DNA of 23,090 nucleotides, from assembly GCA_900763035.1 (NCBI GenBank), contig CAAFIS010000256.1:1-23090 (forward strand), read 5' to 3'. The notes beneath the pieces were generated by a model. The model was not told the origin of the DNA, did not search any database, and saw nothing but the letters and a program-made list of their open reading frames with translations. The stretch is from Clostridia bacterium (GTDB lineage Bacteria > Bacillota > Clostridia > Oscillospirales > Acutalibacteraceae). Within the stretch, counting starts at the first letter, position 1. Each line of letters starts with the position of its first letter. This document shows positions 167 to 23,090 of this stretch, one piece after another. The position numbers and the translations under genes were made by a program.

Positions 167-195
167 AATACAATGTACGATGTCAACTGTATAAT
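167..195 (+). promoter_or_regulatory. Candidate sigma-A promoter for the AraC-type regulator gene
   Basis: A perfect TATAAT -10 box lies at 190-195. AATACA, which shares the ACA half of TTGACA, lies 17 bases upstream at 167-172. The surrounding leader (about 81-210) is distinctly AT-rich compared with the rest of the window. Transcription would start near base 202, about 60 bases before the start codon. The heptamer TATCGAT occurs on both sides, at 131-137 and 202-208, and could be a regulator site, but that is weak. The -35 is poor, which fits a promoter needing an activator. Confidence 0.5.
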
Positions 196-262
196 AAATA
201 CTATCGATGGACCGAGGGGCGTGCGTCCCGTCTGTCGACGGCATCACCGAGGAGGAAAAGCC

Positions 263-1138
263 ATGATCTCCAGCCAAAAACGCTTCCATTTCGACAATCG
301 GGATATGCAAAAGCAGCTCGGGCCGTACTGGCTGTACCAAATGGGTGATCTCAACTGCGTGGGGGACTATCATATCGAGCGGCACCGCCAGTTCGTGTAT
401 GAGGTCACCTATGTCGCGGTCGGGATGGGACACATCTGGGTAGATGACCGCGAGTATATCGGCAAAGCCGGAAACGTGTTCATCAACCGGATCGGCGACA
501 TCCACGAGCTGTACGGCGACCGTTCCGGCGAGTTCCGTTATTTTTATCTCGGCTTTGACTTCAAGGACGTGTCCGACCCGGCGATTCGGCGGATCCGGGA
601 GCTGTTCGACGATCCGAAAAATGTGATGGCGGAGTCTGCACCCGGCGTGCAGGAGGCATTTCTGCGGCTGTTCGGCGAGGCGATCCGGCAGGACCGTTTT
701 TCGGAGCTGTTGGTGGAGAGCTATATCAGCGATCTGTTGGTGCATATCCACCGGGCGTTCGATCGGCAGCGGTACGTCGTCTACCAGGCCGAGGAGGGCG
801 GCAGCGAAAAGCTGGTGTACGATCTGATCAATTATATCGATCTTAACGTCGGTCGCTTCAGTCGGCTGACGGAGCTTTGCGCGGTGTTCGGCTACAGTTA
901 TTCCCATTTGGCGAAGCAGTTCACGCGGGTGATGGGGGAATCGCTGCAAAGCTATTTCATGCGGCGGCGCTTCCGCATGGCCGAGGAGCACCTATGCGAG
1001 GGCATGAGCGTAACGGAAGTGGCCGAACGGATGGGCTATCAGTCGGTACACGCGTTCAGCCGGGCGTTCCATAAACAGGTCGGCATGGCACCGTCGGCCT
1101 ACCGCGAGCTGGCGGAAAACGGCCGACAGGAGCTGTGA
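263..1138 (+). CDS. AraC-family transcriptional regulator (cupin sensor plus AraC HTH)
   Basis: Predicted 291-residue cytoplasmic regulator, probably an activator of the downstream carbohydrate genes. An N-terminal AraC-type cupin-like ligand domain covers roughly residues 25-110, with the characteristic run RHRQFVYEVTYV followed by a GNVFINRIGDIHELYG strand-turn motif. The C-terminal double helix-turn-helix covers about 182-287: the first HTH is near 201-225, and the second (SVTEVAERMGYQSVHAFSRAF) near 249-268 is followed by the family signature ending in GMAPSAYR. I chose ATG 263 because GGAGG at 251-255 sits 7 bases upstream; the longer in-frame start at 173 has no ribosome binding site and overlaps the promoter candidate. 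It is the first gene of the co-directional run, and its stop lies 20 bases before the next gene, so it may be co-transcribed with its targets. The inducer is not evident. Confidence 0.93.
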   Translation: MISSQKRFHFDNRDMQKQLGPYWLYQMGDLNCVGDYHIERHRQFVYEVTYVAVGMGHIWVDDREYIGKAGNVFINRIGDIHELYGDRSGEFRYFYLGFDFKDVSDPAIRRIRELFDDPKNVMAESAPGVQEAFLRLFGEAIRQDRFSELLVESYISDLLVHIHRAFDRQRYVVYQAEEGGSEKLVYDLINYIDLNVGRFSRLTELCAVFGYSYSHLAKQFTRVMGESLQSYFMRRRFRMAEEHLCEGMSVTEVAERMGYQSVHAFSRAFHKQVGMAPSAYRELAENGRQEL

Positions 1139-2645: not shown

Positions 2646-4454
2646 ATGATACAGGAAAGCTTGCGGCGGCTGCATCTCGGCGGTTATCTCGGCCGGCGGT
2701 TGTTGAACAATGAAAAAGTGTGGCTCGACCGGGTGCTGGAGGACGATCCGGCGCTGTTTACGGTGTTTCGCGAACGGGATACGCAGCCGCGCTGCATCGT
2801 GCCGTGGTTTGGCGAATACCCCGGCAAGTTGCTGACCGGCATGGCGTATTTCTATCGGATGAACGGCAGAAAGGAAACGAAGGCGGCCGGGGACGCGATG
2901 GTCGCGGCGCTTTCGGACGTGCAGGATGCGGACGGCTATCTGGGGCCGCATCCGCGTGCGCAGCGGCTGCACGGGCATATGCATCCGGATGCGGTAAGCG
3001 TATTCGGCTGGTATAACGATCCGCCGCTGTGGGACGTTTGGGGGCATTACCACTGCATCTACGGCCTGCTTGCGTGGTACCGCGCCACAGGCGGGGCGCA
3101 GGCGCTTCACACGGCCTGTCGGGCCGCCGATGCGGTGTGCGATCATTTTCTCGGGAGCGGGAGGTCGTTCTCGTCGGCCGGGGAGGCCGACAAGAACCTG
3201 GCGATCGGCCATGCGCTCGTGTTGCTGTATCGGGAAACGGGACAGCGCCGGTATCTTGAGGCGGCGATCGCCACGGTGGAGGAACAGAAAAAGGACGGCT
3301 GCGGCGGTTGGCTGGACGCGGCGCTGCAGGGGCAGGCATTTTGGCAGATGCCGCTGCACCGCTGGGAGGCGCTGCACGCGATCGAAACGCTGGCTGAGCT
3401 GTATCGGGAGACCGGGGACGAGCGATACGCTCGGGGCTTCACACGGCTTTGGCAGAGCATCCGCGACTTCGACCGGCATAACGACGGCGGGTTTTCTAAC
3501 GGCGAGGGTGCCGTGGGCGATCCGTATCGCCTCGGCGCGGTGGAGACGTGCTGCACCGTGGCGTGGATGGCACTGTGCGTCGATCGCTGGCGCATGGCGC
3601 ACGAGCCTGCCGTGCTCGACGAGTTGGAGCTGTCGTTCTTCAACGCCGCCATGGGCAGCCTGATGCCGGACGACCGGATCTTCACCTATGACGTGCCGAT
3701 GAACGGGCTGCGGCAGGGCGCGGATACCGTGCTCGCTTGGCAGACCGTGGAGGGTGGCCGCGACCTGAGCTGTTGCCAGGCCAACGGCAGCCGCGGGCTG
3801 GGGCAGGTCGTCGAATGGGCGGCCGGCCATCTCGGCGAGGACGTGTTCATCGGTTTTTACGGGCCTTGCCGGATGGAACTGACCGGCCCCGTCGGACAGC
3901 ATCTGACGGTCGAGCAACAGACGGATTACCCGGTCGGCGGGGACGTTCGGATCGTGCTGGAACCGGACGAGCCGCGCCGCTTCACACTGCGGCTGCGGAT
4001 CCCCGGCTGGTCGGCACACACGAAGGTGCGTGTCTGCGGCGGCGAGCCGTGCGCGGCCGAAAGCGGCTTTTTCGCTGTGACGCGGCTGTGGCGGCCCGGC
4101 GATACGGTGGAGCTGCAGCTCGACATGACGCCGCACTTCTGGCCGGGGCGCGAGGAGATGGCGGGCAAGACCTCCGTGTATCACGGCCCGGTGCTGCTCG
4201 TGCTCGATACCGGGGCCTCCGGGGTCGACATAGACACCTGCGTTTTTTCGCGCGCGGCGCTTGAACGGATGACGGTGGAGCCGGGCCGGGACGGCCGCTG
4301 GCTCGCGGCGCATACCGAAGATACGTCCGGAAGATCCGTGACGCTGTGCGCCTTTGCCGACGGCGGCCGCGACGGCGCATGGTACATCTCTTGGCTGACG
4401 GTACAAGATCCCCCGCAGCCGCCGCAAGATCGGCCGCTGTGGGCGGCTCGATGA
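2646..4454 (+). CDS. GH127/DUF1680-type glycoside hydrolase (beta-L-arabinofuranosidase-like)
   Basis: Predicted 602-residue cytoplasmic exo-glycosidase; there is no signal peptide. The N-terminal two-thirds matches the alpha/alpha-barrel of the DUF1680/GH127 family and the C-terminal third is beta-sandwich-like. The metal and catalytic set of GH127 is visible: E300-T-C302 corresponds to the zinc-binding Glu-x-Cys of HypBA1, and C376-C377 to its Cys-Cys pair, of which the first is the nucleophile. E287 in NGEG is the likely acid/base, although the spacing to E300 is 13 residues rather than the 16 of HypBA1. C303 is an extra neighbouring cysteine. Known members release beta-L-arabinofuranose, and at least one releases aceric acid from pectin RG-II, so the exact sugar is open. 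ATG 2646 follows GGAGGG at 2635-2640. An intracellular position implies that it acts on imported oligosaccharides. Confidence 0.88.
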   Translation: MIQESLRRLHLGGYLGRRLLNNEKVWLDRVLEDDPALFTVFRERDTQPRCIVPWFGEYPGKLLTGMAYFYRMNGRKETKAAGDAMVAALSDVQDADGYLGPHPRAQRLHGHMHPDAVSVFGWYNDPPLWDVWGHYHCIYGLLAWYRATGGAQALHTACRAADAVCDHFLGSGRSFSSAGEADKNLAIGHALVLLYRETGQRRYLEAAIATVEEQKKDGCGGWLDAALQGQAFWQMPLHRWEALHAIETLAELYRETGDERYARGFTRLWQSIRDFDRHNDGGFSNGEGAVGDPYRLGAVETCCTVAWMALCVDRWRMAHEPAVLDELELSFFNAAMGSLMPDDRIFTYDVPMNGLRQGADTVLAWQTVEGGRDLSCCQANGSRGLGQVVEWAAGHLGEDVFIGFYGPCRMELTGPVGQHLTVEQQTDYPVGGDVRIVLEPDEPRRFTLRLRIPGWSAHTKVRVCGGEPCAAESGFFAVTRLWRPGDTVELQLDMTPHFWPGREEMAGKTSVYHGPVLLVLDTGASGVDIDTCVFSRAALERMTVEPGRDGRWLAAHTEDTSGRSVTLCAFADGGRDGAWYISWLTVQDPPQPPQDRPLWAAR

Positions 4455-9962: not shown

Positions 9963-10028
9963 CGCCTTTTGACAGAGATACCGCCGCGGCAAAGCGAACT
10001 TCACCCTGCCCGGCGGCGTGCGCCGACT

Positions 10029-10060
10029 GCCCGGTGACCGGATATCGACCGGCACCGGGC
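10029..10060 (+). promoter_or_regulatory. Strong 5' hairpin just ahead of the solute-binding lipoprotein gene
   Basis: GCCCGGTG at 10029-10036 pairs with CACCGGGC at 10053-10060. After one bulged A (10037), CCGG at 10038-10041 pairs with CCGG at 10049-10052. The loop is ATATCGA (10042-10048). The stem ends 12 bases before the GGAGG at 10073-10077 and no T-run follows. Such a hairpin could stabilise the 5' end of a processed message, allowing extra solute-binding protein to be made from within an operon. A TTGACA at 9969-9974 in the same gap has no acceptable -10 partner. Confidence 0.5.
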
Positions 10061-10083
10061 GGCCGGCAGAACGGAGGATGACG

Positions 10084-11559
10084 ATGAAACGACTGATAGC
10101 CCTGCTCACCGCGCTGCTGCTGTGTTTGTCGGCAGTCGCCTGCGGGGGCAAGCCTGCCGACACACCGGAAAGCAGCGGCGCATCGCTGCCGGAGCCGTCG
10201 GCACCGGAGCAAAGCGAGAGCCTTCCTTCCCCGACGGACACGTCGGATGCGGCGACGACGGCCGGGACGACCGCCGCCCGCACGACGGTATCCGGCGGCA
10301 AGACGTCGCCGACGAAAAGCGCGGGCGGCGGCACGTCGCCGACGGAAACGCCCGTCGTCCATGCGACGCTGCCGAAATTCAACATCCGGGGGAAAACGGT
10401 CGAGCTGCTGACGCACGACAGCCCGGAGACCGAGGAATCCAAAAAGATCATCGCCCGCTTCAAGGACGCTTACGGCGCGACGCTGAAGATGACGTCCGTT
10501 TCGTGGTCGGACATGGCGACGAAGCTCAATTCCCGCGTCATGTCGAACGATCCGCCGGATGCGGTGGTCGTGCGCAATGCCGATATCTACACCTATCAGC
10601 TCAACGGCATCCTCAAGGACATCAGCGGGATGCTCGATCTTGATTCTGTACTGTGGCGGGACATCAAGGCGCGCAACAGCGATCTGATGCTGGGCGATAA
10701 GCAGTACGTCGCCGTGATCCAAAACTGGGTGAGCTGGTATCTGTGGTATAACAAAACGCTCATGCGCAACAACGGCGTGACCGATACGCCGGATAAACTG
10801 TATGAACGCGGCGAGTGGACGGTATCTGCCATGCAGCGGCTGGCCAAGGAACTGACCCTGCGCGACGGCGAAGCCGTGACGCAGTACGGCCTCGGTGCGA
10901 ACTACGACACGCTGGCCAATTGCCTGATGGCTGCCCGCGGCACGGCGCTGGTCACGCGTGACGGCAGCACGTTCAAAAACAACATCACCGCCACGCAGAT
11001 GGCCGACGCGTACAACCTGCTGTTCGATCTTTACGCCGCCGATAAGTGCATGGCGCCGATCGATCAGCACAGCAATATGTTTGCCAAGGGCCGGTGCGCG
11101 ATGCTCGTCGAGGGAAGCTGGCTGACCGACCAGCGTTCCATGCGCGCGCTCAAGGACAAAGGCTCCATCGAACTCGTGCCGTTCCCGAAGTGGGACGGCG
11201 AGCCGGAGCGTCAGATGGCCGAGATGACCTGCACGGGCATCCCGCGCAATGCGAAGAACACCGACCTCGGCCTTGCGTATATCAATTTCCAGCGCTATAA
11301 CGCGATCGACTACGATCAGCGAAAGCTCGACCGGGAGCAGCAGAAAAAGACCCGCCTGCTGACTGACAGCGAGCTCGACCGTATGGCGCAGGTGGAAAAA
11401 TATGCCGTGCCGGCCTCCGGCCTCGGCATCCCGAACACGCAGCAATACATGATCTCGATGATGGTGGCCTACGGTAACGCCTGGTCACTGGCCGTGGAAA
11501 AATATGCGCCCGAGGTGCAGAAGGCTGTTGACGAGCTGAATGCATCTGCCAAGGGATAA
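10084..11559 (+). CDS. Extracellular solute-binding protein, family 1 (sugar ABC importer lipoprotein)
   Basis: Predicted 491-residue lipoprotein that would capture an oligosaccharide outside the membrane and deliver it to a MalF/MalG-type permease pair. The signal peptide ends at SAVAC (C20); alanine at -3 is a less common lipobox residue. A T/S/G/A/P-rich tether runs to about residue 93. The binding domain (about 99-491) opens with a strand like VELLTHDSPE and contains WYNKTLMRNNGV-like and FAKGRCAMLVEGSW segments that are typical of family 1 sugar-binding proteins. ATG 10084 is preferred over ATG 10078 because GGAGG at 10073-10077 leaves a normal 6-base spacing only for the former. It is the first gene of the transport section, preceded by a strong hairpin and followed 18 bases later by the DUF4127 gene. 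The ligand cannot be deduced. Confidence 0.9.
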   Translation: MKRLIALLTALLLCLSAVACGGKPADTPESSGASLPEPSAPEQSESLPSPTDTSDAATTAGTTAARTTVSGGKTSPTKSAGGGTSPTETPVVHATLPKFNIRGKTVELLTHDSPETEESKKIIARFKDAYGATLKMTSVSWSDMATKLNSRVMSNDPPDAVVVRNADIYTYQLNGILKDISGMLDLDSVLWRDIKARNSDLMLGDKQYVAVIQNWVSWYLWYNKTLMRNNGVTDTPDKLYERGEWTVSAMQRLAKELTLRDGEAVTQYGLGANYDTLANCLMAARGTALVTRDGSTFKNNITATQMADAYNLLFDLYAADKCMAPIDQHSNMFAKGRCAMLVEGSWLTDQRSMRALKDKGSIELVPFPKWDGEPERQMAEMTCTGIPRNAKNTDLGLAYINFQRYNAIDYDQRKLDREQQKKTRLLTDSELDRMAQVEKYAVPASGLGIPNTQQYMISMMVAYGNAWSLAVEKYAPEVQKAVDELNASAKG

Positions 11560-11577: not shown

Positions 11578-13098
11578 ATGAAGAAAAAGATCCTACTGCT
11601 GCCGATAGACGAGCGGCCGTGCAATTACCTTTTCCCGCAGATGATGACCGAGGGCTCGGAATACGAGGTGATCTGCCCGCCGCTCTCCGTCATGCCGCAC
11701 CAAAAAAAGTCTGGCGACTGCGATCGGCTGTTCGCCTTTCTGCAGGAGCATATGGCCACGGCCGATGCCGTGCTGCTCTCGCTCAACACGCTGATCTACG
11801 GCGGTCTCGTCCCCTCGCGGCTGCATGAGGAGAGCCTCGAAACGCTGCTCTCCCGCCTTGCCCGTTTCGGCACGCTGCGCAGACGGTATCCGCAGGTGCG
11901 CGTGTACGCCTACACGCTCATCATGCGCTGCAACCGGGGCTGCTCCAGCGCCGAGGAGCCGGATTATTGGGCCGAATACGGCTATCGCATCTTCCGCATC
12001 GGCTATTTGAGCGATAGGAAACGGCAGACCGCGCTCTCCGCGCAGGAGAGCGACGAGCTGTCGCGTCTGCTGCAGGAGGTGCCGGCCGATATCCTGCACG
12101 ACTACACGGCCAGGCGAAAGATAAACCATGCGGTCAATCTCGCCTGCCTCGAGGCCCTGCGGGACGGCCTGTTCGATTTTCTGGCCATCCCGCAGGACGA
12201 TGCGGCGAAATACGGCTTTATGTGCGATGAACAAAAAGAGATCCGCCGCCGCATCGCCGAGCTGAAGATCGGCACGCGCTGCTATCTGTATCCCGGCGCG
12301 GACGAGGCGGGCAACACCATGCTCGCCCGGGCGATCAATGCCGACCGCGGCGAGCGGCCGCGCGTGTACATCCGTTTCGACAGCTGTGCCGCACCGACGG
12401 TGCGCCCGCTGTACGAGGACCGCTTCATCGGCGAATCGGTCAAATACATGGTGCTCGCGGCCGGCGGGCTGCCGGTGTATGCGCTGGCGGACGCCGACAT
12501 GGTGCTGCTGGTCAATTGCCCGGCCGGGGAGATGGAACACGCCGTGCTGCCGGATCGGCGCTACAGCGTCGACCGCACGGTGGTCGAGCTGGTGGAATAC
12601 GCGGCCTACTGCGTGGAGCGGGGGATCCCGGTAACGATCGGCGACTGCGCGGCTGCGAACGCCGGCGACGTCGAGATGGTCGAGCTGCTGCGCCAGAAGG
12701 GGATCTTGTTCCGGCTGGCCGGCTATGCCGGCTGGAACACCTCGGACAACACGCTGGGCACGGCCGTGCCGATGGGTATGCTCTATCGCCTGCTGGGCGA
12801 CCGGCCGGCCCACCGCGATTTCCTCTCGCTGCGCTATGTGGAGGACGTCGGCTATGCTACGCTCGTGCGCAGCGGGATCGACGAGCAGTTCTCCCGCCCG
12901 GCGGCGGGCAACTGCCGCGCCCTGCCGATGCGCGGCGAAGCCGCCGACTGCGCGAAGCATCGGCTGCAGGTCTTCGCCGACGGACTGACGGAAGGCGAGG
13001 ATGCGCATATCGTGGTCGATGACTGTTGGTTCCCGTGGGAGCGGGCGTTCGAGGTGGGGCTGCGCGTGCGTGCGACGCCCGCGCAGTCAGACCGATGA
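11578..13098 (+). CDS. DUF4127 family protein (function unknown, enzyme-like)
   Basis: Predicted 506-residue protein without signal peptide or membrane helix. The family-defining motifs are present: LLPIDERPCN at 7-16, LSLNTLIYGGL from 67, PQDDAAKYG at 205-213, YPGADEAGN at 238-246, IGDCAAANAGD at 354-364 and AGWNTSDNTLGT at 384-395. Their conserved acidic and asparagine residues at several separate sites look like an active centre, but no activity is established to my knowledge. The position between two solute-binding proteins suggests a part in metabolism of the imported sugar. The ribosome binding site is weak and distant (AAAGG at 11561-11565, 12 bases before the ATG), unlike the strong sites of its neighbours, which may mean low expression. 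The cytoplasmic location is inferred only from the lack of a signal peptide. Confidence 0.87.
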   Translation: MKKKILLLPIDERPCNYLFPQMMTEGSEYEVICPPLSVMPHQKKSGDCDRLFAFLQEHMATADAVLLSLNTLIYGGLVPSRLHEESLETLLSRLARFGTLRRRYPQVRVYAYTLIMRCNRGCSSAEEPDYWAEYGYRIFRIGYLSDRKRQTALSAQESDELSRLLQEVPADILHDYTARRKINHAVNLACLEALRDGLFDFLAIPQDDAAKYGFMCDEQKEIRRRIAELKIGTRCYLYPGADEAGNTMLARAINADRGERPRVYIRFDSCAAPTVRPLYEDRFIGESVKYMVLAAGGLPVYALADADMVLLVNCPAGEMEHAVLPDRRYSVDRTVVELVEYAAYCVERGIPVTIGDCAAANAGDVEMVELLRQKGILFRLAGYAGWNTSDNTLGTAVPMGMLYRLLGDRPAHRDFLSLRYVEDVGYATLVRSGIDEQFSRPAAGNCRALPMRGEAADCAKHRLQVFADGLTEGEDAHIVVDDCWFPWERAFEVGLRVRATPAQSDR

Positions 13099-13124
13099 CG
13101 GATGGGAAAGGAGACCGTGCGAAG

Positions 13125-15890
13125 ATGAGGCGACGGATGACGATCGGCAGGCGCGCCGCGGCATGGGCTGCGGCGGCGCTGCTCGCCGCAGGCGGCGTAC
13201 CGGCAGCAGCTGCGCCGATGACGGACGCGGCGGCCGAGATCTGCCTGACGGCGGATGCGCTGCTGCCTGCCGGCGGCACGGTCGAGCGGACGGTGCTCGA
13301 CGGGCGGGAGGCGCTGCTGCTTTCGGCGGATGCCGCCGTGCAGGCGGCTTTCACCGTAGAGCAGGCAGGAGATTACTGGGTAGAGATCGAATACCGGCCG
13401 CTGGAGAGCACGATCCGCGACCTTGGCTGCCGCCTGCTGATCGACGGTGCGCTGCCCTGCGCGCAGGCGGCCGATCTGCACCTGCCGAAGCGGTATGTCG
13501 CCGAAGCGGTGCGGCAGGACAGCCGTGGCAACGACCTGCGGCCGGAAACGACGGTGGACCGCGTGTGGAGCACCCACACGCTGACCGAGGACACCGGCGT
13601 GTCGGGGGAGATATCTCTCGCCCTCACGGCCGGCGAGCATCGGCTGACGCTGACGGCGCTCGACGAGCATTTTGCGGTCTCCGCGGTGCGGTTCTACCGG
13701 CCGCAGGCGGCGCCGGACTATGCCGTTTATCGCCGCCTGCACGGTGATACCGCACCGGCGGGCTATGCCCAAACGGTGGAGGCGGAGAGCGCCGCCTACC
13801 GCTCGAGCGCGGTCATCGCCCTGAACACGGACCGCTCCGGCCCGCAGGTATCGCCGAACGACCCGGCGCGGCTGCGGGTGAACACGCTCGGCGGCAGCGG
13901 CTGGGCGCGCTACGGGCAATATGCCGTGTGGTGCGTGACGGTACCGCACAGCGGCTATTACCGCCTGTCCGTGCGTTACCGGCAGAACAGCGCACGGGGG
14001 AGAAAGACGTACCGGCGGCTGACGGTCAACGGCAGCGTGCCGTTCGCCGAGGCCGAGGCGCTGCCGTTCTCCTTCTCCGACGCTTGGCAGACGGACGACC
14101 TTTTTGCCGGGGATATCTATCTGACGGCGGGTGAGAACGAACTGCGGCTCGAGGCGGTACTCGGTCCTTACGCTGCGGTGGTCCGCGCGGCGGACGAAAC
14201 GGCGCGCCGGCTGGGCGCGCTGTACCGCGAGATCATGATGATCACGGGCAGCGATCCGGACAGCAGCCGCGACTATATGCTCGCCGACGAGCTGCCGGAT
14301 CTGCCCGAAAAGCTGCAAGCTCTGCGGGAAGACCTGTCCGGCATAGAGCAGAGCTTGCTCTCCGTCGACGAACGAAGCCTGACCGACGATGCCGCGATCG
14401 TGCGCACGCTGCTCGTGCAGCTCGACGGGTTCCTGCGCGACACCGAGCAGATCCCGATGCGGCTGAGCAGCTTCCAAACGAACATCAGCTCCTTCGGCGA
14501 CCTCGTGGCGGGGCTGAAGAAGCAGCCGCTCGAGCTCGATGCCTTCGGTATCGTATCGGCCGGGGAGAACAGCGTTCTGACCGTGCCCAGTCTCGCCGCG
14601 CGTCTGCGCTATGCCGCGGCGGCCTTCGCCGCGTCGTTCTCCGGTGATTACACGAGCGTTGGCGACGTGGCCGAGGGCGGATCGACGGTGGAGCTGTGGA
14701 TCAACAGCAGCGGTACGGTCGGGCGCGAACAGGCCGAGATCATCAAGCAGGCGCTCGACAGCCGCTTCACGCGCGACACCGGGATCGGTGTCGACCTCAA
14801 GCTCGTTTCGCAGGCGCTGGCACCGGCGATCTTCTCCGGCCGCGGGCCGGATGCGGCGCTGTATGTGTCCGCCGGTGAGCCGGTGGATCTTGCCGCACGC
14901 GGCGGCCTGCAGGATCTGCGCGGGATGGAGGGCTTCTCGCAGCTCGCCGCCGGGCTGACGGAGGACGCGTTCCTGCCGTACACCTATAACGGCGGCGTAT
15001 ACGCCGTGCCGTTCACGGAGGATCTGCCGGTGATGTTCTGTCGCACGGATATCCTGCAGGAGCTGGGCGTCGAACCGCCGGACACGTGGGACGAGTTCTA
15101 CCGCGTGCTGTCCGTCATCCAGAAGAACAATATGACCGTGGGGATCCCGAACGTCCGCGGCACGCAGATGAGCATCGACACGACGGTCTATGCCATGCTG
15201 CTGTATCAGCGCGGCGGGCAGTACTATTCGGCGGCACAGGACGAGACGGCGTTCGACAGCGAGGCAGCGCACGATGCCTTCCGCCAATGGACGGATCTGT
15301 ATAAAAACTACAGTCTGCCGGTGCAGTACAGCTTTTATCAGCGTTTCCGGCTGGGCGATATGCCGCTGGGGATCGAGGGCTGCTCGATGGCGACGCTGCT
15401 CGAGAGCGCCGCGCCGGAGATCGACGGGCTGTGGGCCATGGCGCCGCTGCCGGGCACGCGGCGCAGCGACGGGACGGTGAGCCGCACGGCGATCGCCTCC
15501 GGCGCGTGCAGCGTCATGCTCAAAAGCGCGCGTGACAAGGCGGCGACGTGGCAGGTGATGCGTTGGCTCTCCGGCACGCAGGCGCAAACGGCGATCGGCC
15601 TCGGGATAGAATCGGCGCTGGGCGCGGCCGGGCGGTTCATGGCGGCCGATCACACGGCGTTCGAAGCCCTGCCGTGGGACCGTGCACAGGCGGCGGCGAT
15701 CCGCACGCAGCGCCGCGAGGTGACGTTTTTGCCGCAGGTGCCGGGCGGATATTACGTGGAGCGCGGATTGACCAACGCGTTCCGGCGCACGGTGTTCTAC
15801 GGCCGCAATTACCGCGAGGCACTGACCGAATATAAACGGGAGATGGATCTGGAGATCGCACGCAAGCGGCGGGAATTCGGGCTTGCGTGA
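13125..15890 (+). CDS. Exported solute-binding protein fused to N-terminal beta-rich domains
   Basis: Predicted 921 residues, about twice the usual size of a family 1 sugar-binding protein. Order: signal peptide about 1-30; two beta-sandwich-like domains about 35-210 and 215-350, each with a Y-x-(V/L)-x-(I/V)-x-YR strand (GDYWVEIEYR, GYYRLSVRYR) as in carbohydrate-binding modules; a helical connector about 355-470; then the solute-binding domain from about 519, starting VELWINSSGT and including PVMFCRTDILQELGVEPPDTWDEF-type sequence. There is no lipobox cysteine and no C-terminal membrane helix, so the way it stays at the cell surface is unclear. ATG 13125 follows AAAGGAG at 13107-13113; ATG 13137 and ATG 13095 (overlapping the previous stop) are alternatives. 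It lies 40 bases before the first permease gene and probably serves it. Sugar binding by the extra domains is inference. Confidence 0.86.
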   Translation: MRRRMTIGRRAAAWAAAALLAAGGVPAAAAPMTDAAAEICLTADALLPAGGTVERTVLDGREALLLSADAAVQAAFTVEQAGDYWVEIEYRPLESTIRDLGCRLLIDGALPCAQAADLHLPKRYVAEAVRQDSRGNDLRPETTVDRVWSTHTLTEDTGVSGEISLALTAGEHRLTLTALDEHFAVSAVRFYRPQAAPDYAVYRRLHGDTAPAGYAQTVEAESAAYRSSAVIALNTDRSGPQVSPNDPARLRVNTLGGSGWARYGQYAVWCVTVPHSGYYRLSVRYRQNSARGRKTYRRLTVNGSVPFAEAEALPFSFSDAWQTDDLFAGDIYLTAGENELRLEAVLGPYAAVVRAADETARRLGALYREIMMITGSDPDSSRDYMLADELPDLPEKLQALREDLSGIEQSLLSVDERSLTDDAAIVRTLLVQLDGFLRDTEQIPMRLSSFQTNISSFGDLVAGLKKQPLELDAFGIVSAGENSVLTVPSLAARLRYAAAAFAASFSGDYTSVGDVAEGGSTVELWINSSGTVGREQAEIIKQALDSRFTRDTGIGVDLKLVSQALAPAIFSGRGPDAALYVSAGEPVDLAARGGLQDLRGMEGFSQLAAGLTEDAFLPYTYNGGVYAVPFTEDLPVMFCRTDILQELGVEPPDTWDEFYRVLSVIQKNNMTVGIPNVRGTQMSIDTTVYAMLLYQRGGQYYSAAQDETAFDSEAAHDAFRQWTDLYKNYSLPVQYSFYQRFRLGDMPLGIEGCSMATLLESAAPEIDGLWAMAPLPGTRRSDGTVSRTAIASGACSVMLKSARDKAATWQVMRWLSGTQAQTAIGLGIESALGAAGRFMAADHTAFEALPWDRAQAAAIRTQRREVTFLPQVPGGYYVERGLTNAFRRTVFYGRNYREALTEYKREMDLEIARKRREFGLA

Positions 15891-15930: not shown

Positions 15931-16869
15931 ATGCATAGACCGGCTGCTCTGCGGCGGCCCGGACGAAGGACCGGGCGCGGCTTTTGGCGGACGTGCGTGC
16001 GCGACCGCGGCAAATATGCCATGATGCTGCCGTTTTTCCTTCTGTACGGAACGTTCACGCTCGCGCCGATCGTCTGCTCGATCGTGCTGAGTCTGACGGA
16101 TTTCGATATGCTGTCGGCGCCGCATTTCGTGTGGCTCGAGAATTATCGCAAGATGCTGCTCGAGGACAGCGTTTTCTCCACCGTGGTGAAGAACACGCTG
16201 CTGTTCGCCGTCGTGACCGGGCCGATCAGCTATTTTTTGTGCCTGATCGTGGCATGGCTCGTCAACGAATTGCGGCCGGCCGTGCGCGCCGGGATGACGT
16301 TTTTGTTCTATGCACCGAACATCGCCGGGAACCTGTACGTGATCTGGAGCATGATCTTCAGCGGCGATATGTACGGCTGGGCCAACGGGCTGCTGATGAG
16401 CCTCGGCGTGATCGACGAGCCGGTGCAGTGGCTCTCCACGCCGGGGACGAACCTGACGATCATCATGCTCGTTCAGCTTTGGATGAGCATGGGCGCGGGC
16501 TTTTTGACCTTCATCGCCGGCCTGCAGGGCGTCGACCGTGCGCTGTACGAGGCGGCGGCCATCGACGGGATCCGTGACCGCTGGCAGGAGTTCATCTACG
16601 TGACGATCCCGACCATGGGGCCGCAGCTCCTGTTCGGGGCGGTCATGCAGATCAGCGCCTCGTTCTCGGCCGGGCGGATCTGCATCGAACTGGCCGGGAA
16701 CCCGAGCACGGACTATTCGGCCAGCACCATGATCACGCATATCATCGACTACGGCACGCAGCGCTACGAGATGGGCTATGCCTCGGCGCTCGCCACCGTG
16801 CTTTTTGCGGCGATGCTGCTGTTCGACCGGCTGATCCGCCGGATACTGCGCGACCGCACGCAGGGCTAG
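15931..16869 (+). CDS. Sugar ABC transporter permease, MalF type (first pair)
   Basis: Predicted 312-residue integral membrane protein forming half of the channel of a carbohydrate uptake ABC importer. About six membrane helices are visible, starting near residue 31 after a basic N-terminus. The cytoplasmic EAA loop that docks the ATPase is intact at 207-227: EAAAIDGIRDRW, then IPT. ATG 15931 follows AAGGGAG at 15917-15923; the longer frame from 15883 is rejected because it overlaps the previous gene. Its partner follows after 21 bases. No ATPase gene is nearby, so a shared MsmK-type ATPase is likely. The length is normal for the family. Confidence 0.94.
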   Translation: MHRPAALRRPGRRTGRGFWRTCVRDRGKYAMMLPFFLLYGTFTLAPIVCSIVLSLTDFDMLSAPHFVWLENYRKMLLEDSVFSTVVKNTLLFAVVTGPISYFLCLIVAWLVNELRPAVRAGMTFLFYAPNIAGNLYVIWSMIFSGDMYGWANGLLMSLGVIDEPVQWLSTPGTNLTIIMLVQLWMSMGAGFLTFIAGLQGVDRALYEAAAIDGIRDRWQEFIYVTIPTMGPQLLFGAVMQISASFSAGRICIELAGNPSTDYSASTMITHIIDYGTQRYEMGYASALATVLFAAMLLFDRLIRRILRDRTQG

Positions 16870-16890
16870 GCCGGGAGGAGGAAAACCGAT

Positions 16891-17748
16891 ATGTCGAAAC
16901 GCAAACGCGCCCGTGTCAGCCGTTCGCGGGCGGGCGACCTGCTCGTGTTCCTGCTTCTGGCCGTGTTCGGCTGCTTCACGGCGATCCCGTTTTTGTTCTC
17001 GCTCGTGCAGTCGATCAAGCCGATGAACGAACTGTTCATCTACCCGCCGCGCCTGACCGTCAACAGCCCCACGGCAGATAATTTTGCCGTGCTGTTCCAG
17101 CTGACCGGGAACACATGGGTGCCGCTGACGCGCTATCTGTTCAATAGCCTTGCCCTGACGCTGCTCGGCACCGTGGGCAACGTGCTGATCTGCTCCGCGG
17201 CGGCTTATCCGCTGGCAAAGCTGCGCTTCCACGGCCGCACGGTGCTGTTCGAGCTGGTGGTCGTCTCGCTGCTGTTCACCTATGAGGTCACGGCCATCCC
17301 GAACTACGTCATCTTGGCGCGGCTGCATCTGCTCGATACGTTTTGGGCGCTGCTGCTGCCGGCGCTCGCCACGCCGATGGGGCTGTTTTTGATGAAACAG
17401 TTCATGGAGCAGATCCCCGACCCGATCATCGAGAGCGCCCGCGTCGACGGCGCGGGGATACTGACGGTCTACGGACGCATCATCATGCCGCAGGTCAAGC
17501 CGGCGTGGCTGACGCTGACGATCTTCAGCTTTCAGGCGCTGTGGAACCGCGAAGGGCTGGAATACATCTTCAGCGAGGAGCTGAAGATGTTCCCCACGAT
17601 CCTCAAGCAAGTCGCTTCGGCCGGTGCGGCACGTGCGGGCGCGGCCGCGGCGGCGGCCGTGATCTTGATGATCCCGCCCGTGCTCGTTTTCCTCGTTTCG
17701 CAGTCGAACGTTCTCGAAACGATGGCCAGCTCCGGCATCAAGGAATAA
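16891..17748 (+). CDS. Sugar ABC transporter permease, MalG type (first pair)
   Basis: Predicted 285-residue integral membrane protein, the second half of the first importer channel. It has a basic N-terminus (SKRKRARVSRSR), a first helix at about 17-38, about six helices in all, and an intact EAA loop at 181-200 (ESARVDGAG, then RIIMP). The sequence SIKPMNELFIYPP after helix 1 is typical of MalG-type permeases. GGGAGGAGG upstream gives a strong ribosome binding site. A run of alanines near 246-256 lies at the start of the last helix. It is followed 12 bases later by the NHL/Yip1 gene, implying one message. Confidence 0.94.
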   Translation: MSKRKRARVSRSRAGDLLVFLLLAVFGCFTAIPFLFSLVQSIKPMNELFIYPPRLTVNSPTADNFAVLFQLTGNTWVPLTRYLFNSLALTLLGTVGNVLICSAAAYPLAKLRFHGRTVLFELVVVSLLFTYEVTAIPNYVILARLHLLDTFWALLLPALATPMGLFLMKQFMEQIPDPIIESARVDGAGILTVYGRIIMPQVKPAWLTLTIFSFQALWNREGLEYIFSEELKMFPTILKQVASAGAARAGAAAAAAVILMIPPVLVFLVSQSNVLETMASSGIKE

Positions 17749-17760
17749 GGAGGTAGCCGC

Positions 17761-19860
17761 ATGAAACGTTTCATCCGCGCCGCAGCGGCCGTGCTGCTGC
17801 TCATACCGCTGCTGGCCGTCCCGGCGCTCGCGTTCACGCCGTACACCGCTTATTCCTATGATATCTACGGCCACAGCACGCCGTCGGCGAACGGTTATGA
17901 GGTGGCGGCGGCCTATGCCGTGCGCGAGTTCGGCCTGACCGGCACGCCGCGCGACCTGCATCATGCCGACGGGCGGCTGTACATCTTGGCCGATGATGGC
18001 ATGGCGATCCTTGACGAGCAGCTGCGGCCGGTCTCGGTGCTGCGGACGCTCACCTACGGTGACGAGGTGCTGACGCTCGATCGGCCGCGCGGCATCTTCG
18101 CAGCGGACAGCGAGCATATCCTGATCGCCGACACCGAGGCGCACCGTGTGCTGGAATGCACCTCCGCCGGCCGCGTGACCCGCATCCTGCAAAAGCCGAC
18201 ACGGGCCGGGCAGGAGGAAGGCGGGTATTTGGACAAGCTGGATTTCCGTCCGGTCAAGGTGCTGTACGGGGCCGACGGCGACGTGTTCGTGCTGGTGGAG
18301 AACTGCTACCTCGGCATCCTGCGTTATGATGCTGCGGGGACGTTTCGCGGCTTTTTCGCCGCCCAGAAGGTCACGGCCTCGCTCAGCCAGATGATCGATA
18401 AGCTGTGGAAGCGGCTGCTGACGAAAAAGCAGCGCTCATACATCGCGAACTATGTACCGGTCGACCTGACGTCGTTCGATATCGATGCGGAAGGCTTCAT
18501 CTATACGACGACCAGCCGCAGCAACTCGACCGTCGACGAGATCCAAAGGCTCAACGCCGTGGGCAAGAACATCCTGCGCGCCGACGTGCAGTACGACACG
18601 CTCGGCCGCGGCGACTACGGCGACCGGGAAAAGCTCGTCTACCGGCAGCGGTCAGTGGATTCGAAGCTGATCGACGTGACGGTGGCCGAAAACGGCGTGT
18701 TCGCCGCACTCGACCTGCAGCGCAGCCGGGTGTTCGTGTATGACGGCGATTCGGAGCTGCTGTTCATTTTCGGCGGCAGTGGGGAACAGCGGGGCCTGTT
18801 TCGCCACGTGGCGGCGATCGAGAGCATCGGCGACCGCCTGATCGTGCTCGATGACGAAAAGGGAACGGTGACGGCGTTCTCGCCCACGCCGTTCGGCCGG
18901 CTCGTGCTGACGGCGGCCGAGGCGAACGCCCGCGGCCGCTACGAGGAGGCGCTCGCGCCGTGGCAGGAAGTGCTGCGGCTGGATGCGGGCAGCGCATTGG
19001 CCTGCCGCGGCATCGGCAAGGCGTATGTTTCTTTGGAGCGCTATGCCGAGGCGATGCCCTATCTGCGCCGCGGCGGCGACCGGGAGAATTATTCGAAGGC
19101 CCTGCGCGTCGTGCGCAGCGACCGGCTGCAGGCGGCGTTCTATCCGCTCTTGGGCGCGGTCGCCGTGCTGGCTGTGCTGATCGTCTGCCGCCGCCGTCTG
19201 CCCCTGCGCCGGGCGGCCGACCGATGGCTCGCGGCACACGTGCCGCCGGAGGAGCGCCCGACTTATCCGATGCGCCACCTGATCGTCGGCTTCGACGGGC
19301 TGCGCCGTTCACGCTCGCGCGTGTCGCTGATCACGGCGGCGGGGCTGGTGGTGCTGCTGTTTTTCTCGTCGCTGCTCATGCAGCGCTGCACGGGCTTCGT
19401 CTTCCGTCTGGACGACCCGCGCAAATTCAACGTCCTGTTCATCGCCGCGCGCAGCCTTGGGCTGTTCTTGCTGTGGTGCCTGTCGTCCGCCGGCGTCAGC
19501 TCCATGCTGGAGGGGGAGGGCAGCGCCCGCCGGATCTTCGTGGTGTCCGCTTATGCCCTTTTGCCGATGATCTTGGCGCGCCTTTTCTATGTGCTGCTGT
19601 CTAACGCGGCGATCTATGATGAGGGCGCGCTGCTGCAGGCGATGCTGTATGCCGGATATCTTTGGACGGCGTGGCTGCTGTTCTATGCGATCAAAGAGGC
19701 TCACCAGTTCACGGTGTCCCGCACGCTGCTCGCCGTCGTGATGACGGTGGTGGGGATGCTGATGTGCGGGCTGATCCTCGTGCTGGTCTATGGGCTGATG
19801 CAGCAGCTCATCACCTTCGTCATGACCGTCGTCAACGAGCTTTTGCTGCGCACGGTGTGA
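17761..19860 (+). CDS. NHL-type beta-propeller / TPR / Yip1-domain membrane protein
   Basis: Predicted 699 residues. Order: signal peptide about 1-24; NHL-like propeller about 55-375 with repeated blades such as LDRPRGIFAADSEHILIADTEAHRV, whose pattern (a P-x-G-(I/V) followed by (I/V)-AD-x-x-x-x-R(I/V)) marks NHL repeats; a TPR-like segment about 385-440 (NARGRYEEALAPWQEVLRLD, then SLERYAEAMPYL); a membrane helix about 459-476; a basic stretch CRRRLPLRRAADR; then a Yip1-type domain about 505-699 with about five helices. By the positive-inside rule the propeller and TPR would be extracellular and the basic linker cytoplasmic. ATG 17761 follows AAGGAGG at 17748-17754. Its place between two permease pairs suggests an accessory or sensing role for the importers, but no function is established. 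Confidence 0.86.
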   Translation: MKRFIRAAAAVLLLIPLLAVPALAFTPYTAYSYDIYGHSTPSANGYEVAAAYAVREFGLTGTPRDLHHADGRLYILADDGMAILDEQLRPVSVLRTLTYGDEVLTLDRPRGIFAADSEHILIADTEAHRVLECTSAGRVTRILQKPTRAGQEEGGYLDKLDFRPVKVLYGADGDVFVLVENCYLGILRYDAAGTFRGFFAAQKVTASLSQMIDKLWKRLLTKKQRSYIANYVPVDLTSFDIDAEGFIYTTTSRSNSTVDEIQRLNAVGKNILRADVQYDTLGRGDYGDREKLVYRQRSVDSKLIDVTVAENGVFAALDLQRSRVFVYDGDSELLFIFGGSGEQRGLFRHVAAIESIGDRLIVLDDEKGTVTAFSPTPFGRLVLTAAEANARGRYEEALAPWQEVLRLDAGSALACRGIGKAYVSLERYAEAMPYLRRGGDRENYSKALRVVRSDRLQAAFYPLLGAVAVLAVLIVCRRRLPLRRAADRWLAAHVPPEERPTYPMRHLIVGFDGLRRSRSRVSLITAAGLVVLLFFSSLLMQRCTGFVFRLDDPRKFNVLFIAARSLGLFLLWCLSSAGVSSMLEGEGSARRIFVVSAYALLPMILARLFYVLLSNAAIYDEGALLQAMLYAGYLWTAWLLFYAIKEAHQFTVSRTLLAVVMTVVGMLMCGLILVLVYGLMQQLITFVMTVVNELLLRTV

Positions 19861-19881
19861 ACCGATAAAGGAGGAACGACT

Positions 19882-22101
19882 GTGGAACGAGTTGCCAGAT
19901 CCGCCGTCCGGCGCGCAGCCGCGATCGCGGCCGCGGCCGTGCTCGCCCTGTTGCCATGTGCCGGGGCGGCTGCGGGGCAGCCGCCGGCAGAGGAGGTCAG
20001 TTACCGGCAGCAGGAGGGCCGCCTGACGGCGGAGAACGCACAGCTCTCGCTTGCCGTGGACACGGGGACGGGCGAGTTTTGTGTGACCGATAAAGGAAGC
20101 GGCAAGCGCTGGTACAGCGGCCCGGAGCAAAAGGACGACACGGCGCAGGGGACGCGCCGTTTCATCCAATATTCTCCGCTGACCGTGACGGTGATCGACC
20201 GGGAAACGCACGAGCCGACCACCGAGCTGTCCTACACCGGATCCGTGCTGTGCGACGGGCTGACGGTCGACCGGATCGACGGGGGCGTGCGCCTGACGTT
20301 CTCGTTTCCGGACCGTCAGATCGTCGTCCCGCTCGATCTGCTGCTCGACGACGGTGTGCTGCGCGCGCGTGTGGAAACGGCGCTGATCCGGGAGGACGGC
20401 GGGTATCTGGTGGAGAGCCTGACGCTGCTGCCGTGCTTTGGCTGCGGCGACAGCGGTGACGACGGCTATTTGTTCGTGCCGGACGGCAGTGGTGCACTGA
20501 TCGACTTCGCCGTCGATCGCAGCGGCTATCGGACCTACGAGCAGCCGGTGTACGGCAGCGACCCGGCCTATGCCGGGGATATGGCGGTCAGCCGCAAGAC
20601 GCCGATCCGTCTGCCGGTGTTCGGGATCGAGAAAAACGGCCAAACGTTCTTGGCCGAGATCTCCGCCGGCGCGGAGAGCGCCTGGATCAAGGCTGCCGCT
20701 CCGGGGACGGACGGCCGCATCGGCACGGTATGTGCATCGTTCTCCGTTATCGGCTCCGGACTGGTGACGATCGGCGAGAGCAGTCAGGGCGCGGTGAAGG
20801 AAACGCGGCTGTATCAGACCGGTACGCGCCTGATCGATGCCGCGCAGGTCGATCTGCACTTGCTGACGGACGGCGGCGGCTACAACGCCATGGCGGCCTG
20901 CTATCGGGAGCTGCTGCGCTCGCGCGGGGTAGGGGCGCAGGCGGCCGCGCCTGCGGCGTTGTATTGTGAATTCGTCGGCGGCGTGCTGCGCGAGGAGAGC
21001 GTTTTCGGCTTCTATGTCCGGCGGGAAAAGGCGCTGACGACGGCAGAACAGCTGCACGGGGCCGTGCAGGCGCTGGATATCTCCGGGATGCGCGTGGTGT
21101 ATTCCGATTGGACGCGTCAGCAGATCCGCGGCACGCTGCAAACGGATGCCCGGCTGTCCGGACGTCTCGGACGCTCGGCGGAACTGACGGCGCTGTCGCG
21201 GGAACTCGGCGACGGTGGGCTGCTGCTGTCGTGCGATCCGCTGACGACGGAAAAAGCCTCGCTGCGCTTCCTGCCGGCCTTCGACGGGGCAAAGCGCATC
21301 GGCGGCGAGACGAACCGCCTGTACCGCTATCGGCCAAGTACGCTGTATATCGACCGGGACGACCCGGTGACCTACCTGCTGCGCCCGGCGCGCTTCGGGC
21401 GGACGTTCACGCCGTTTTTGCGCTCGCTTTCCCGGCGGTATCCGCAGGCGCAGCCGTACAGTGCGACGCTCGGCAACACCCTGTATGCCGATTTCGACAA
21501 AAAGCATTTTTCCACCCGCACGCAGACGGCGGCGCAGATCGTCGCGGCCATGGCGGCGGGCGGCCGGGCGTGGACGCTCGGCGAGCCGAACGCCTATGCG
21601 CTGCCCTACGCGCAGGCCGTGACGGAGCTGCCCGATTCTTCGTCCGGCTTCGATCTGTTCACGTGCGACGTGCCGTTTTATGCCTTGGCGGTGGATGGCC
21701 TGCTGGAAAAGACCGTGCCGTGCGTCGACGCGGCCGACGACGGGACGCGGATGCTGCTCAAGGCGCTGGAGACGAACAGTCGGCTGTATTTCCGCTTCAT
21801 CTGCGGCGATCCGGAGGATCTGACCTACACCGACCGCGATGATCTGTATTATGCGGTGTTCTCCGCCCGGCTGGAGGAAACGCGCACCCTGTATGCGGCC
21901 TATGCTGCGGCGGCCGAACCGCTGCGCGGGGCGACGGTCGCCGAGCATCGCCGGGTGACGGATACGGTGTTCGAAACGGTGTATACGAACGGCGCGCACG
22001 TCCTCGTCAATTACGGGACACAGGCGTTCACCGCCGACGGACACACGGCGGAGGCCGGCGGCTATGCCGTTTGGCAGCAACGACAGGAGGACGACCGATG
22101 A
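19882..22101 (+). CDS. Exported DUF5696 family protein (putative glycosidase-like)
   Basis: Predicted 739 residues with a signal peptide of about 1-32 (AAIAAAAVLALLPCAGAAAG) and no clear C-terminal anchor. The N-terminal half (about 45-330) is beta-rich and contains the family motif YLFVPDGSGALIDF at about 196-209. The second half (about 350-670) alternates helices and strands and resembles a barrel, with acidic residues in segments such as VVYSDWT near 405-411 and LGNTLYADFDKK near 530-541; a short beta tail ends the protein. This plan resembles glycosidases with a mutarotase-like sandwich and a TIM barrel, but catalytic residues cannot be assigned. It starts at GTG 19882 behind AAAGGAGG at 19867-19874. 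Its last four bases overlap the next start codon, indicating coupling to the second permease pair. Confidence 0.83.
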   Translation: MERVARSAVRRAAAIAAAAVLALLPCAGAAAGQPPAEEVSYRQQEGRLTAENAQLSLAVDTGTGEFCVTDKGSGKRWYSGPEQKDDTAQGTRRFIQYSPLTVTVIDRETHEPTTELSYTGSVLCDGLTVDRIDGGVRLTFSFPDRQIVVPLDLLLDDGVLRARVETALIREDGGYLVESLTLLPCFGCGDSGDDGYLFVPDGSGALIDFAVDRSGYRTYEQPVYGSDPAYAGDMAVSRKTPIRLPVFGIEKNGQTFLAEISAGAESAWIKAAAPGTDGRIGTVCASFSVIGSGLVTIGESSQGAVKETRLYQTGTRLIDAAQVDLHLLTDGGGYNAMAACYRELLRSRGVGAQAAAPAALYCEFVGGVLREESVFGFYVRREKALTTAEQLHGAVQALDISGMRVVYSDWTRQQIRGTLQTDARLSGRLGRSAELTALSRELGDGGLLLSCDPLTTEKASLRFLPAFDGAKRIGGETNRLYRYRPSTLYIDRDDPVTYLLRPARFGRTFTPFLRSLSRRYPQAQPYSATLGNTLYADFDKKHFSTRTQTAAQIVAAMAAGGRAWTLGEPNAYALPYAQAVTELPDSSSGFDLFTCDVPFYALAVDGLLEKTVPCVDAADDGTRMLLKALETNSRLYFRFICGDPEDLTYTDRDDLYYAVFSARLEETRTLYAAYAAAAEPLRGATVAEHRRVTDTVFETVYTNGAHVLVNYGTQAFTADGHTAEAGGYAVWQQRQEDDR

Positions 22102-23015
22102 AACATCCGCTGCGGCGCCGCCCGCTGTCTTACGAGACGAAAAAACGCTATTACGCCTACGGCTTCATCGCGCTGTGGCTCGTCGGGCTGGTGTTCTATT
22201 TCTTCCGGCCGCTGATCGCGATGCTGCGCTATACCGTCAGCGATATCGAGTTCACCGAAACGGGCTATCGGCTGGTGAACGTCGGCTTTCGGGAGTTCGA
22301 CCGGGCGCTGCGCACGGACAATAAGTTCGTGCAGCAGCTCGTCGGCAGCATCGGTACGATGCTGTATCAGGTGCCGATCATCCTGTTTTTCAGCTTGGCC
22401 GTGGCGCTGCTGCTCAACAGGCCGTTTCGCGGCCGGACGGTCGCACGCGCCGTGTTCTTCATCCCGGTCATCGTGACGAGCGGCGCCGTGCTGAGCGTGC
22501 TCAACGGCAGCGGCACATCCGGGGAAAACTCTCTGCTGCAAACGCAGACGAACAATATGTTCTCGGTCACGGGCAGCAGCGAGATCCTGTACGAGCTTGG
22601 TCTGCCGCAGCAGGTGACGGAGCTGTTGGTGGACACGGCCAACGATATCTTCGGCCTGTCGTGGCGCTCCGGCGTGCAGATCCTGATCCTGCTCGCGGCG
22701 CTGCAAACGGTCGCGCCGCAGCTTTACGAGGCGGCGCGTGTCGAGGGCGCGACCGGATGGGACACGTTTTGGAAACTGACGGTCCCGTCGATCTCACCGA
22801 TGCTGCTGCTGTGTCTGGTTTACAGCGTGATCGACAGCTTCGTCGATAGCGATAACGTCCTTATCCGCTATATCCGGTCGTACATGGGGCAGCTCGACGT
22901 GGAATACAGCTCGACGATGGTGCTGCTGTATTCCGTGGTCGTGTTCGCGATCGTCGGGCTGGTGTTCCTGCTGACGCGCCGTCTGGTGTTCTACGCCGAC
23001 GAGCGCGGCGCATAA
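22098..23015 (+). CDS. Sugar ABC transporter permease, MalF type (second pair)
   Basis: Predicted 305-residue integral membrane protein. A basic N-terminus with SYETKKRYYAYGF precedes the first helix (about 22-44), about six helices are visible, and the EAA loop is intact at 211-230 (EAARVEGATGWDTFWKLTVP). It differs clearly from the first MalF-type protein: it has a longer loop at about 136-180 with many polar residues (NGSGTSGENSLLQTQTNN). The start ATG 22098 overlaps the DUF5696 stop as ATGA, and CAGGAGG at 22084-22090 is its ribosome binding site; the longer frame from 22071 is rejected. It forms a second importer channel in the same operon, probably with the truncated gene that follows. 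Confidence 0.93.
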   Translation: MKHPLRRRPLSYETKKRYYAYGFIALWLVGLVFYFFRPLIAMLRYTVSDIEFTETGYRLVNVGFREFDRALRTDNKFVQQLVGSIGTMLYQVPIILFFSLAVALLLNRPFRGRTVARAVFFIPVIVTSGAVLSVLNGSGTSGENSLLQTQTNNMFSVTGSSEILYELGLPQQVTELLVDTANDIFGLSWRSGVQILILLAALQTVAPQLYEAARVEGATGWDTFWKLTVPSISPMLLLCLVYSVIDSFVDSDNVLIRYIRSYMGQLDVEYSSTMVLLYSVVVFAIVGLVFLLTRRLVFYADERGA

Positions 23016-23027
23016 GGGGGTACCGAG

Positions 23028-23090
23028 ATGAATGATGCTTACCGGCAGGCAAGGCTCGCCCGCCGTCGCCGCCGCGCCCTTGCGGGCGCG
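23028..23090 (+). CDS. Start of a gene, probably the MalG-type partner permease (cut by window end)
   Basis: ATG 23028 follows AAGGGGG at 23014-23020 and lies 12 bases after the previous stop. Only 21 codons are present, encoding MNDAYRQARLARRRRRALAG and one more alanine. The strongly basic start resembles the cytoplasmic N-terminus of the first MalG-type permease in this locus. The identity rests on this and on position after a MalF-type gene; no membrane helix is yet visible. Confidence 0.6.
   Translation, partial: MNDAYRQARLARRRRRALAGA

Follow-up and report, generated by a model that had tools for sequence, protein, structure and literature searches.

The described systems closest to the gene block reported here are ATP-binding cassette (ABC) importers of the CUT1 type and Gram-positive polysaccharide utilization loci (gpPULs). 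The block lies at the end of a 23,090-nt stretch of DNA, the window, from a Clostridia bacterium of the Acutalibacteraceae (assembly GCA_900763035.1, contig CAAFIS010000256.1). It consists of five whole genes and one gene start, all on the + strand: permease A1 (MalF-like, 15931..16869), permease A2 (MalG-like, 16891..17748), a membrane protein with an NHL propeller, TPR and Yip1 parts (17761..19860), an exported DUF5696 protein with a GH129-like fold (19882..22101), permease B1 (MalF-like, 22098..23015) and the start of a further open reading frame (ORF; 23028..23090). The gaps are 21, 12 and 21 bases, a 4-base overlap (DUF5696/B1) and 12 bases, which confirms the single direction, the 12-21 base gaps and the overlap reported in a first-pass annotation of the window. 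The last ORF, called 'probably MalG' there, is permease B2 (MalG-like) by its position in relatives; only its first 21 codons fall within the window. Like CUT1 importers (MalFGK, UgpAEC and the MsmX-served type), the block has pairs of BPD_transp_1 permeases with EAA motifs, solute-binding proteins (SBPs) of the SBP_bac_1/8 families, and MalK-type ATPases in the carrier genomes searched. Unlike them, it has two permease-pair lineages, a giant SBP mostly without a lipobox, and constant NHL-TPR-Yip1 and DUF5696 proteins. gpPULs, as presented in the main text of PMC5320581, unite a regulator, degrading enzymes and an ABC importer in one locus and occur as several loci per genome; a regulator (AraC), a degrading enzyme (GH127-like) and permeases are likewise combined in the window locus, whereas Yip1, NHL and DUF5696 are not named in that main text. 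A Yip1 family membrane protein working with an ABC transporter is described from Bacillus, where YknW modulates the assembly of YknXYZ (PMC4887032). YknYZ, however, is an exporter resembling MacB and has a membrane fusion protein, and the accessible text of PMC4887032 names no NHL, DUF5696 or CUT1 part. The window permeases are BPD_transp_1 and not MacB-like, and the Pfam matches of the 14 window proteins include no membrane fusion protein. They include no SusC or SusD homologue either, which sets the block apart from SusC/SusD polysaccharide utilization loci. The block is placed with the CUT1 importer and gpPUL loci, not with SusCD or YknWXYZ. Literature searches, mostly without subscription papers, gave no description of the block for Yip1 with carbohydrate permease or polysaccharide, and no paper that names DUF5696, which does not establish absence from print. 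The parts are of known kinds; undescribed, as far as could be seen, are their union in one module, its wide distribution and the loss of the predicted catalytic acids.

The block is read here, at a probability of about one half, as a putative dual-importer glycan-uptake module, conserved in Bacillota and scaffolded by the NHL-TPR-Yip1 protein. A contig scan with an alignment of the Yip1 protein gave at least 588 pattern stretches and at least 370 relatives; the 80 best loci among these were retained. Seventy-nine of the 80 are from Bacillota and one has no assigned lineage. The block is present across Bacilli and Clostridia, its carriers including gut and rumen Lachnospiraceae and Oscillospiraceae (as metagenome-assembled genomes, MAGs) as well as Paenibacillaceae and Bacillaceae; Paenibacillus baekrokdamisoli and Amphibacillus marinus are cultured examples. 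The DUF5696 gene adjoins the Yip1 gene in 75 of 76 loci of this set; among the 63 with room on both sides, 56 show the order A1-A2-Yip1-DUF5696-B1-B2, and in 62 four or more permeases lie in the vicinity. Median gaps range from -4 to 16 bases, the DUF5696/B1 median of -4 being the overlap seen in the window. In five loci without pair A upstream of the Yip1 gene, no hidden permease was found among the immediately preceding genes, which encode a LacI regulator, a PHP-like protein, a lectin-like protein, a beta-helix protein and one protein without a match. In L134 a gene for a GH5 enzyme, not a permease, is inserted between pair A and the Yip1 gene.

Since this set was chosen by Yip1 similarity, a second, independent set was drawn via DUF5696. 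The Pfam family was searched in 398 genomes sampled evenly across the phylum to which the Bacillota MAG G002 belongs, with the best 2-5 candidates scored per genome. A match at E 0.001 was found in 46 genomes and exceeded the cut-off in 39, of which 37 are full-length and 2 partial (26.5 and 25.7 bits). The Yip1 alignment matched 183 of the 398 genomes at E 0.001, among the matches listed mostly through the NHL part and at no more than 70 bits. The strong NHL/Yip1 matches (at least 376 bits) are in exactly the same 37 genomes as full-length DUF5696; the sole partial match (G253, 205 bits) is at a contig end. Gene order was counted at a single locus per genome in 36 of the 37 genomes (36 loci), G002 being handled separately. 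Yip1-DUF5696-B1-B2 is unbroken in 36/36. Pair A directly precedes the Yip1 gene, giving the exact six-gene order, in 23 of the 32 loci with room, at least four permeases lie within the fetched stretch in 28, and 5 of these 28 have the swapped order Yip1-DUF5696-B1-B2-SBP2-A1-A2, where SBP2 is the giant binding protein. The block thus persists well beyond close relatives. Of the two outcomes that the first-pass annotation had named as contrary, neither occurred: the order is not unique to this contig, and the Yip1 and DUF5696 genes are not usually found apart from double permease pairs. Chance synteny and a local arrangement were considered and dropped.

Single genomes often carry several copies. 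The chicken-derived MAG Candidatus Avimonas caecicola (G002, source of L003; 3.2 Mb) has 20 DUF5696 matches, and its loci with room show the six-gene order in 10 of 15 and four permeases in 14 of 15. Paenibacillus baekrokdamisoli (G001, source of L001) has nine full-length DUF5696 matches and one fragment; the six-gene order is found in all nine of its modules and in 7/7 further loci of G003, G005, G006 and G007.

By sequence, both permease pairs are separate, dedicated lineages with predicted ATPase-coupling motifs. The BPD_transp_1 domain is over the cut-off in all three window permeases. In quick trees that set 28 rows per class beside 17 further CUT1 permeases from these genomes (68 of the 73 rows differing in each), A1, A2, B1 and B2 each formed a single clade with Shimodaira-Hasegawa-like approximate likelihood ratio (SH-aLRT) support of 100. 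In G001, which has 115 matches to A1, A1-type permeases occur only in the nine modules (205-375 bits; next 122), and so do B1-type permeases (122-211 bits; next 58). The EAA-type coupling motif is present in all four classes (rows of more than 250 residues): its E or D is kept in 95/95 A1, 96/97 A2, 144/144 B1 and 99/100 B2, and its G in 95/95, 96/97, 144/144 and 100/100, respectively. Neither pair looks dead on these residues; a degenerate second permease pair was considered and dropped. A MalK-type ATPase (PF17912) was over the cut-off in 7/7 carrier genomes searched, with one such protein in G002 and six in G001, and none was found among the 14 window proteins scanned with Pfam. Of the six in G001, four share the strand of a DUF5696 gene and precede it by about 7.5-8 kb. 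In G002 (loci L120-L139), 43 matches to permease A1 and 20 to DUF5696 contrast with a single MalK-type ATPase match.

The DUF5696 protein has a GH129-like fold over its whole length, with 14% identity to the GH129-like enzymes NagBb and Zobellia DagB (5wzn, 5opq). The earlier description 'glycosidase-like' therefore holds for the fold and largely fails for the predicted catalytic acids, which are mostly not kept. The window protein has no acid at the predicted positions, T529 (L534 by hhalign) and G567; E568 adjoins G567, and the alignment leaves some doubt. Both acids are kept in 21 of 157 rows, which are not independent, some genes being present twice and some loci overlapping (e.g. L088 and L120). 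According to the accessible text of PMC5698469, the Zobellia enzyme is inactivated by change of Asp486, Glu517, Glu531 or Asp202. The positions of Asp486, Glu517 and Glu531 are acidic in 82, 53 and 4 of the 157 rows, and none is acidic in the window protein by reading of the alignment. Because the predicted acids are mostly not kept, glycan binding is rated above processing as the probable role of DUF5696. That DUF5696 is a working exo-glycosidase whose catalytic pair is shifted or replaced by another (e.g. D537 with D594 or D596), and that it trims oligosaccharides before import, is improbable, given the counts of 82, 53 and 4. Such an enzyme would suit the fold along the whole protein, the 21 rows with both acids, and the other kept residues: D537 (140 rows), R546 (155), N570 (140), N616 (151) and E630 (141). 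Catalytic residues also differ already among the known enzymes, the second one of NagBb not being conserved in the Zobellia enzyme (PMC5698469, accessible text). The GH129 Pfam family gave no match in 199 genomes of the phylum, where no control matched either; GH129-like proteins were found with a stretch of the Zobellia enzyme as query. Four of 11 weak DUF5696 matches in other genomes were scanned and rejected, three as DUF6259 proteins and one as an alpha-amylase. The DUF6259 proteins (L210, L211, L218) weakly resemble DUF5696 in the barrel region, a possible distant kinship.

The window encodes two binding proteins upstream of the block, both matched by family 1/8 solute-binding domains. 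SBP1 is of the lipoprotein type (10090..11559, +; SBP_bac_1/SBP_bac_8; start chosen within ORF 10018-11559), and SBP2 is giant (13137..15890, +; start chosen within ORF 13026-15890). SBP2 has an N-terminal extension of about 500 residues with weak carbohydrate-binding module (CBM)-like matches; its matched part is about 870 residues long (n=94), and 28 of 29 match SBP_bac_1. Its C-terminal tail resembles EIxRKRxEFGL, the strict pattern fitting 46/94 SBP2 vs 0/67 SBP1; E906 and K910 do not vary among the 29 proteins aligned, and the tail is a possible docking peptide. By sequence, SBP2 is tied to pair A, and the lipoprotein-type SBP1 is often present in the block. A lipobox-like motif was found in 5/90 SBP2 and 14/114 DUF5696, compared with 50/66 of SBP1 as control; a hydrophobic N-terminus in 65/90, 108/114 and 62/66, respectively; and a C-terminal membrane segment in none of the 90, 114 and 66. 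The Yip1 domain (PF04893) of the window protein scores 44.3 bits against a cut-off of 28.6; across the 80 loci the Yip1 half is in the same gene as NHL-TPR or in a second, adjacent gene (two ORFs in 45/80). Because SBP2 and DUF5696 mostly lack a lipobox, the NHL-TPR-Yip1 protein is their likeliest dock. A propeller/TPR membrane protein beside two exported, mostly anchorless proteins suggests docking.

In the dual-importer reading the core would be the Yip1 protein, DUF5696 and pair B, and pair A with SBP2 would form a second importer that is usually joined to it. The Yip1 half may lie in the membrane next to the permeases, while the propeller/TPR half, outside the cell, would dock DUF5696 and SBP2. 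DUF5696 would act mainly as a non-catalytic, glycan-holding partner. SBP2 and SBP1 may pass different oligosaccharides to pairs A and B, and both pairs would be driven by a MalK-type ATPase, often shared. 4F2hc-type heavy chains are non-catalytic ectodomains of glycosidase fold that serve a transporter; they are eukaryotic, GH13-like and belong to amino acid exchangers. The analogy with DUF5696 is one of working only and claims no kinship; weak 4F2hc rows (E 0.64 or worse) appeared in the search output. The dual-importer module would bear on how Firmicutes, in the absence of SusCD-like proteins, hold fragments of polysaccharide at their one membrane. A bolder version is put forward tentatively, at less than even odds: an undescribed Gram-positive machine in which an NHL-TPR-Yip1 scaffold, two unlike CUT1 importers, a pseudo-glycosidase and a giant SBP form one surface complex, a Firmicute counterpart of SusCD amplified within a genome, its many copies serving different polysaccharides. 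The composite uptake proposed in the first-pass annotation is supported genomically, and its physical assembly is what we infer; no result favours the sensing, or the choice between channels, also proposed there. With DUF5696 and a Yip1 membrane protein joined to two lineages of importer, the module is one testable unit, and the block is usable as a genomic marker for glycan uptake loci.

Several points weigh against the dual-importer reading. Anchors were counted by means of a regular expression and hydropathy, from guessed starts, and only 65 of the 90 SBP2 showed a hydrophobic N-terminus; an uncleaved signal peptide would anchor SBP2 and DUF5696 themselves. Both predicted acids are retained in those 21 DUF5696 rows, and a missing acid is no proof of inactivity, because the NagBb residue differs in the Zobellia enzyme (PMC5698469, accessible text). 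A stricter EAA pattern fits 94/97 A1 and 94/101 A2 but only 84/149 B1 and 85/140 B2; it is often missed because B1 varies at the alanine positions. In 4/32 loci of the independent set (L237, L240, L245, L257) no pair A was seen next to the core, although the far end of L245 carries another MalF-like match. The Halanaerobiaceae MAG G004 (source of L024), with ten DUF5696 matches, lacks pair A beside the module in 4/4 loci with room, and the best A1 match in its whole genome, which as a MAG may be incomplete, is 66 bits. Two channels are thus not obligatory, this MAG showing no match of the first-pair type in spite of its ten DUF5696 copies. Conversely, A1-type permeases (at least 229 bits) occur without DUF5696 in six of the 398 genomes. 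Two of the six (G090, G164) have theirs on cut contigs with SBP2, as does G114 with a 151-bit A1-type fragment; G017, G064, G103 and G137 hold A1-A2 without Yip1/DUF5696 on longer contigs. Because A1-A2 occur there without the core, pair A also exists independently, and the module is a joining of two units. The first-pass annotation suggested that the two middle proteins could work between the two channels; an exclusive service to two channels does not stand, pair B alone being constant (36/36) and pair A lying on the opposite side (5/32), unseen (4/32), or without a match above 66 bits in G004.

Co-transcription accounts for the gene order equally well. The block could hold two CUT1 importers that are independent, each taking up one of two products of a single polysaccharide, merely co-transcribed and without a joint complex, SBP2 feeding pair A and SBP1 pair B, DUF5696 binding or trimming glycan and Yip1 being a general membrane factor. 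This is rather unlikely. It agrees with the separability of pair A and core in both directions and with the swapped order, and leaves unexplained the constant DUF5696 and Yip1 with pair B (36/36). The distances between loci divide on it. Over 40 loci the six parts show correlated pairwise distances (0.77-0.90), which favours the dual-importer reading but partly reflects common descent; within one genome and with SBP2 added, the range is 0.57-0.91 in G002 (10 loci) and 0.69-0.95 in G001 (9 loci). SBP2 in G002 tracks pair A (r 0.91, 0.87) above B1 (0.62) and B2 (0.77), as separate importers would have it, whereas in G001 it tracks B1 and B2 (0.83, 0.83) nearly as well as pair A (0.89, 0.90).

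Mean identity over the same 40 loci is 0.51 for A1, 0.47 for A2, 0.38 for B2, 0.37 for B1, 0.30 for the Yip1 protein and 0.27 for DUF5696. That pair A is the most conserved part would fit a role of pair A and SBP2 outside nutrient import, either sensing at the surface or some task in the envelope, the state being passed on by the propeller, and so would a pair-A variant beside two ATPases and CBM35-like proteins, with no recognised binding-protein domain in the stretches scanned. Such a role is very improbable: SBP2 matches SBP_bac_1 in 28/29 and the EAA motifs are retained in A1/A2, both of which an importer should show, and Pfam matched no signalling domain in the window Yip1 protein. The variant is L222 (G137), where two MalK-type ATPase genes follow the permeases; among eight L222 proteins Pfam gave a CBM35 match, with DUF58 and DUF4129 matches upstream. 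In L221-L224 (G017, G137, G064, G103) pair A-type permeases have in their vicinity secreted proteins that share SBP2's CBM-like stretch, and no NHL-Yip1, DUF5696 or recognised binding-protein domain was found in the stretches scanned.

Neighbouring genes were scanned for 72 of 266 collected proteins, and 25 of the 75 matched families were listed. Among these are CBM65 (11), GH26 (9), CBM35 (9), Peripla_BP_3 with GntR or LacI (9), GH38 (4), GH95, GH76 and GH5 (2 each) and GH113 (1). In Lachnospiraceae/Clostridiales MAGs, GH26 with CBM35 lies upstream of the module in L022, L028 and L035; downstream of it, L022 and L065 encode a protein that has three CBM65 stretches. This suggests mannan use at these four loci. 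Because of the families matched, mannan-type glycans are common predicted substrates among the sampled neighbours; substrates vary, and the window itself has a GH127-like enzyme (2646..4454, +; PF07944, 137.9 bits).

An AraC-type regulator (173..1138, +; Pfam HTH_18 and AraC_binding) heads the window locus. Upstream of the block and in the same direction, reading away from it, are SBP2, a DUF4127 protein, SBP1, a large F5/8C-like protein, SGNH proteins, the GH127-like enzyme and the AraC regulator. No Rfam match was found in the window at gathering scores, and plasmid records gave short matches only (8 records, 1-2% of the query). The DUF4127 gene (11578-13098, 483 bits) lies between SBP1 and SBP2; phmmer matched no counterpart in any other of the first 80 loci. 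The large protein at 6396-9962, of 1188 residues, matches F5/8C below threshold and has near its C-terminus a hydrophobic stretch with basic residues after it.

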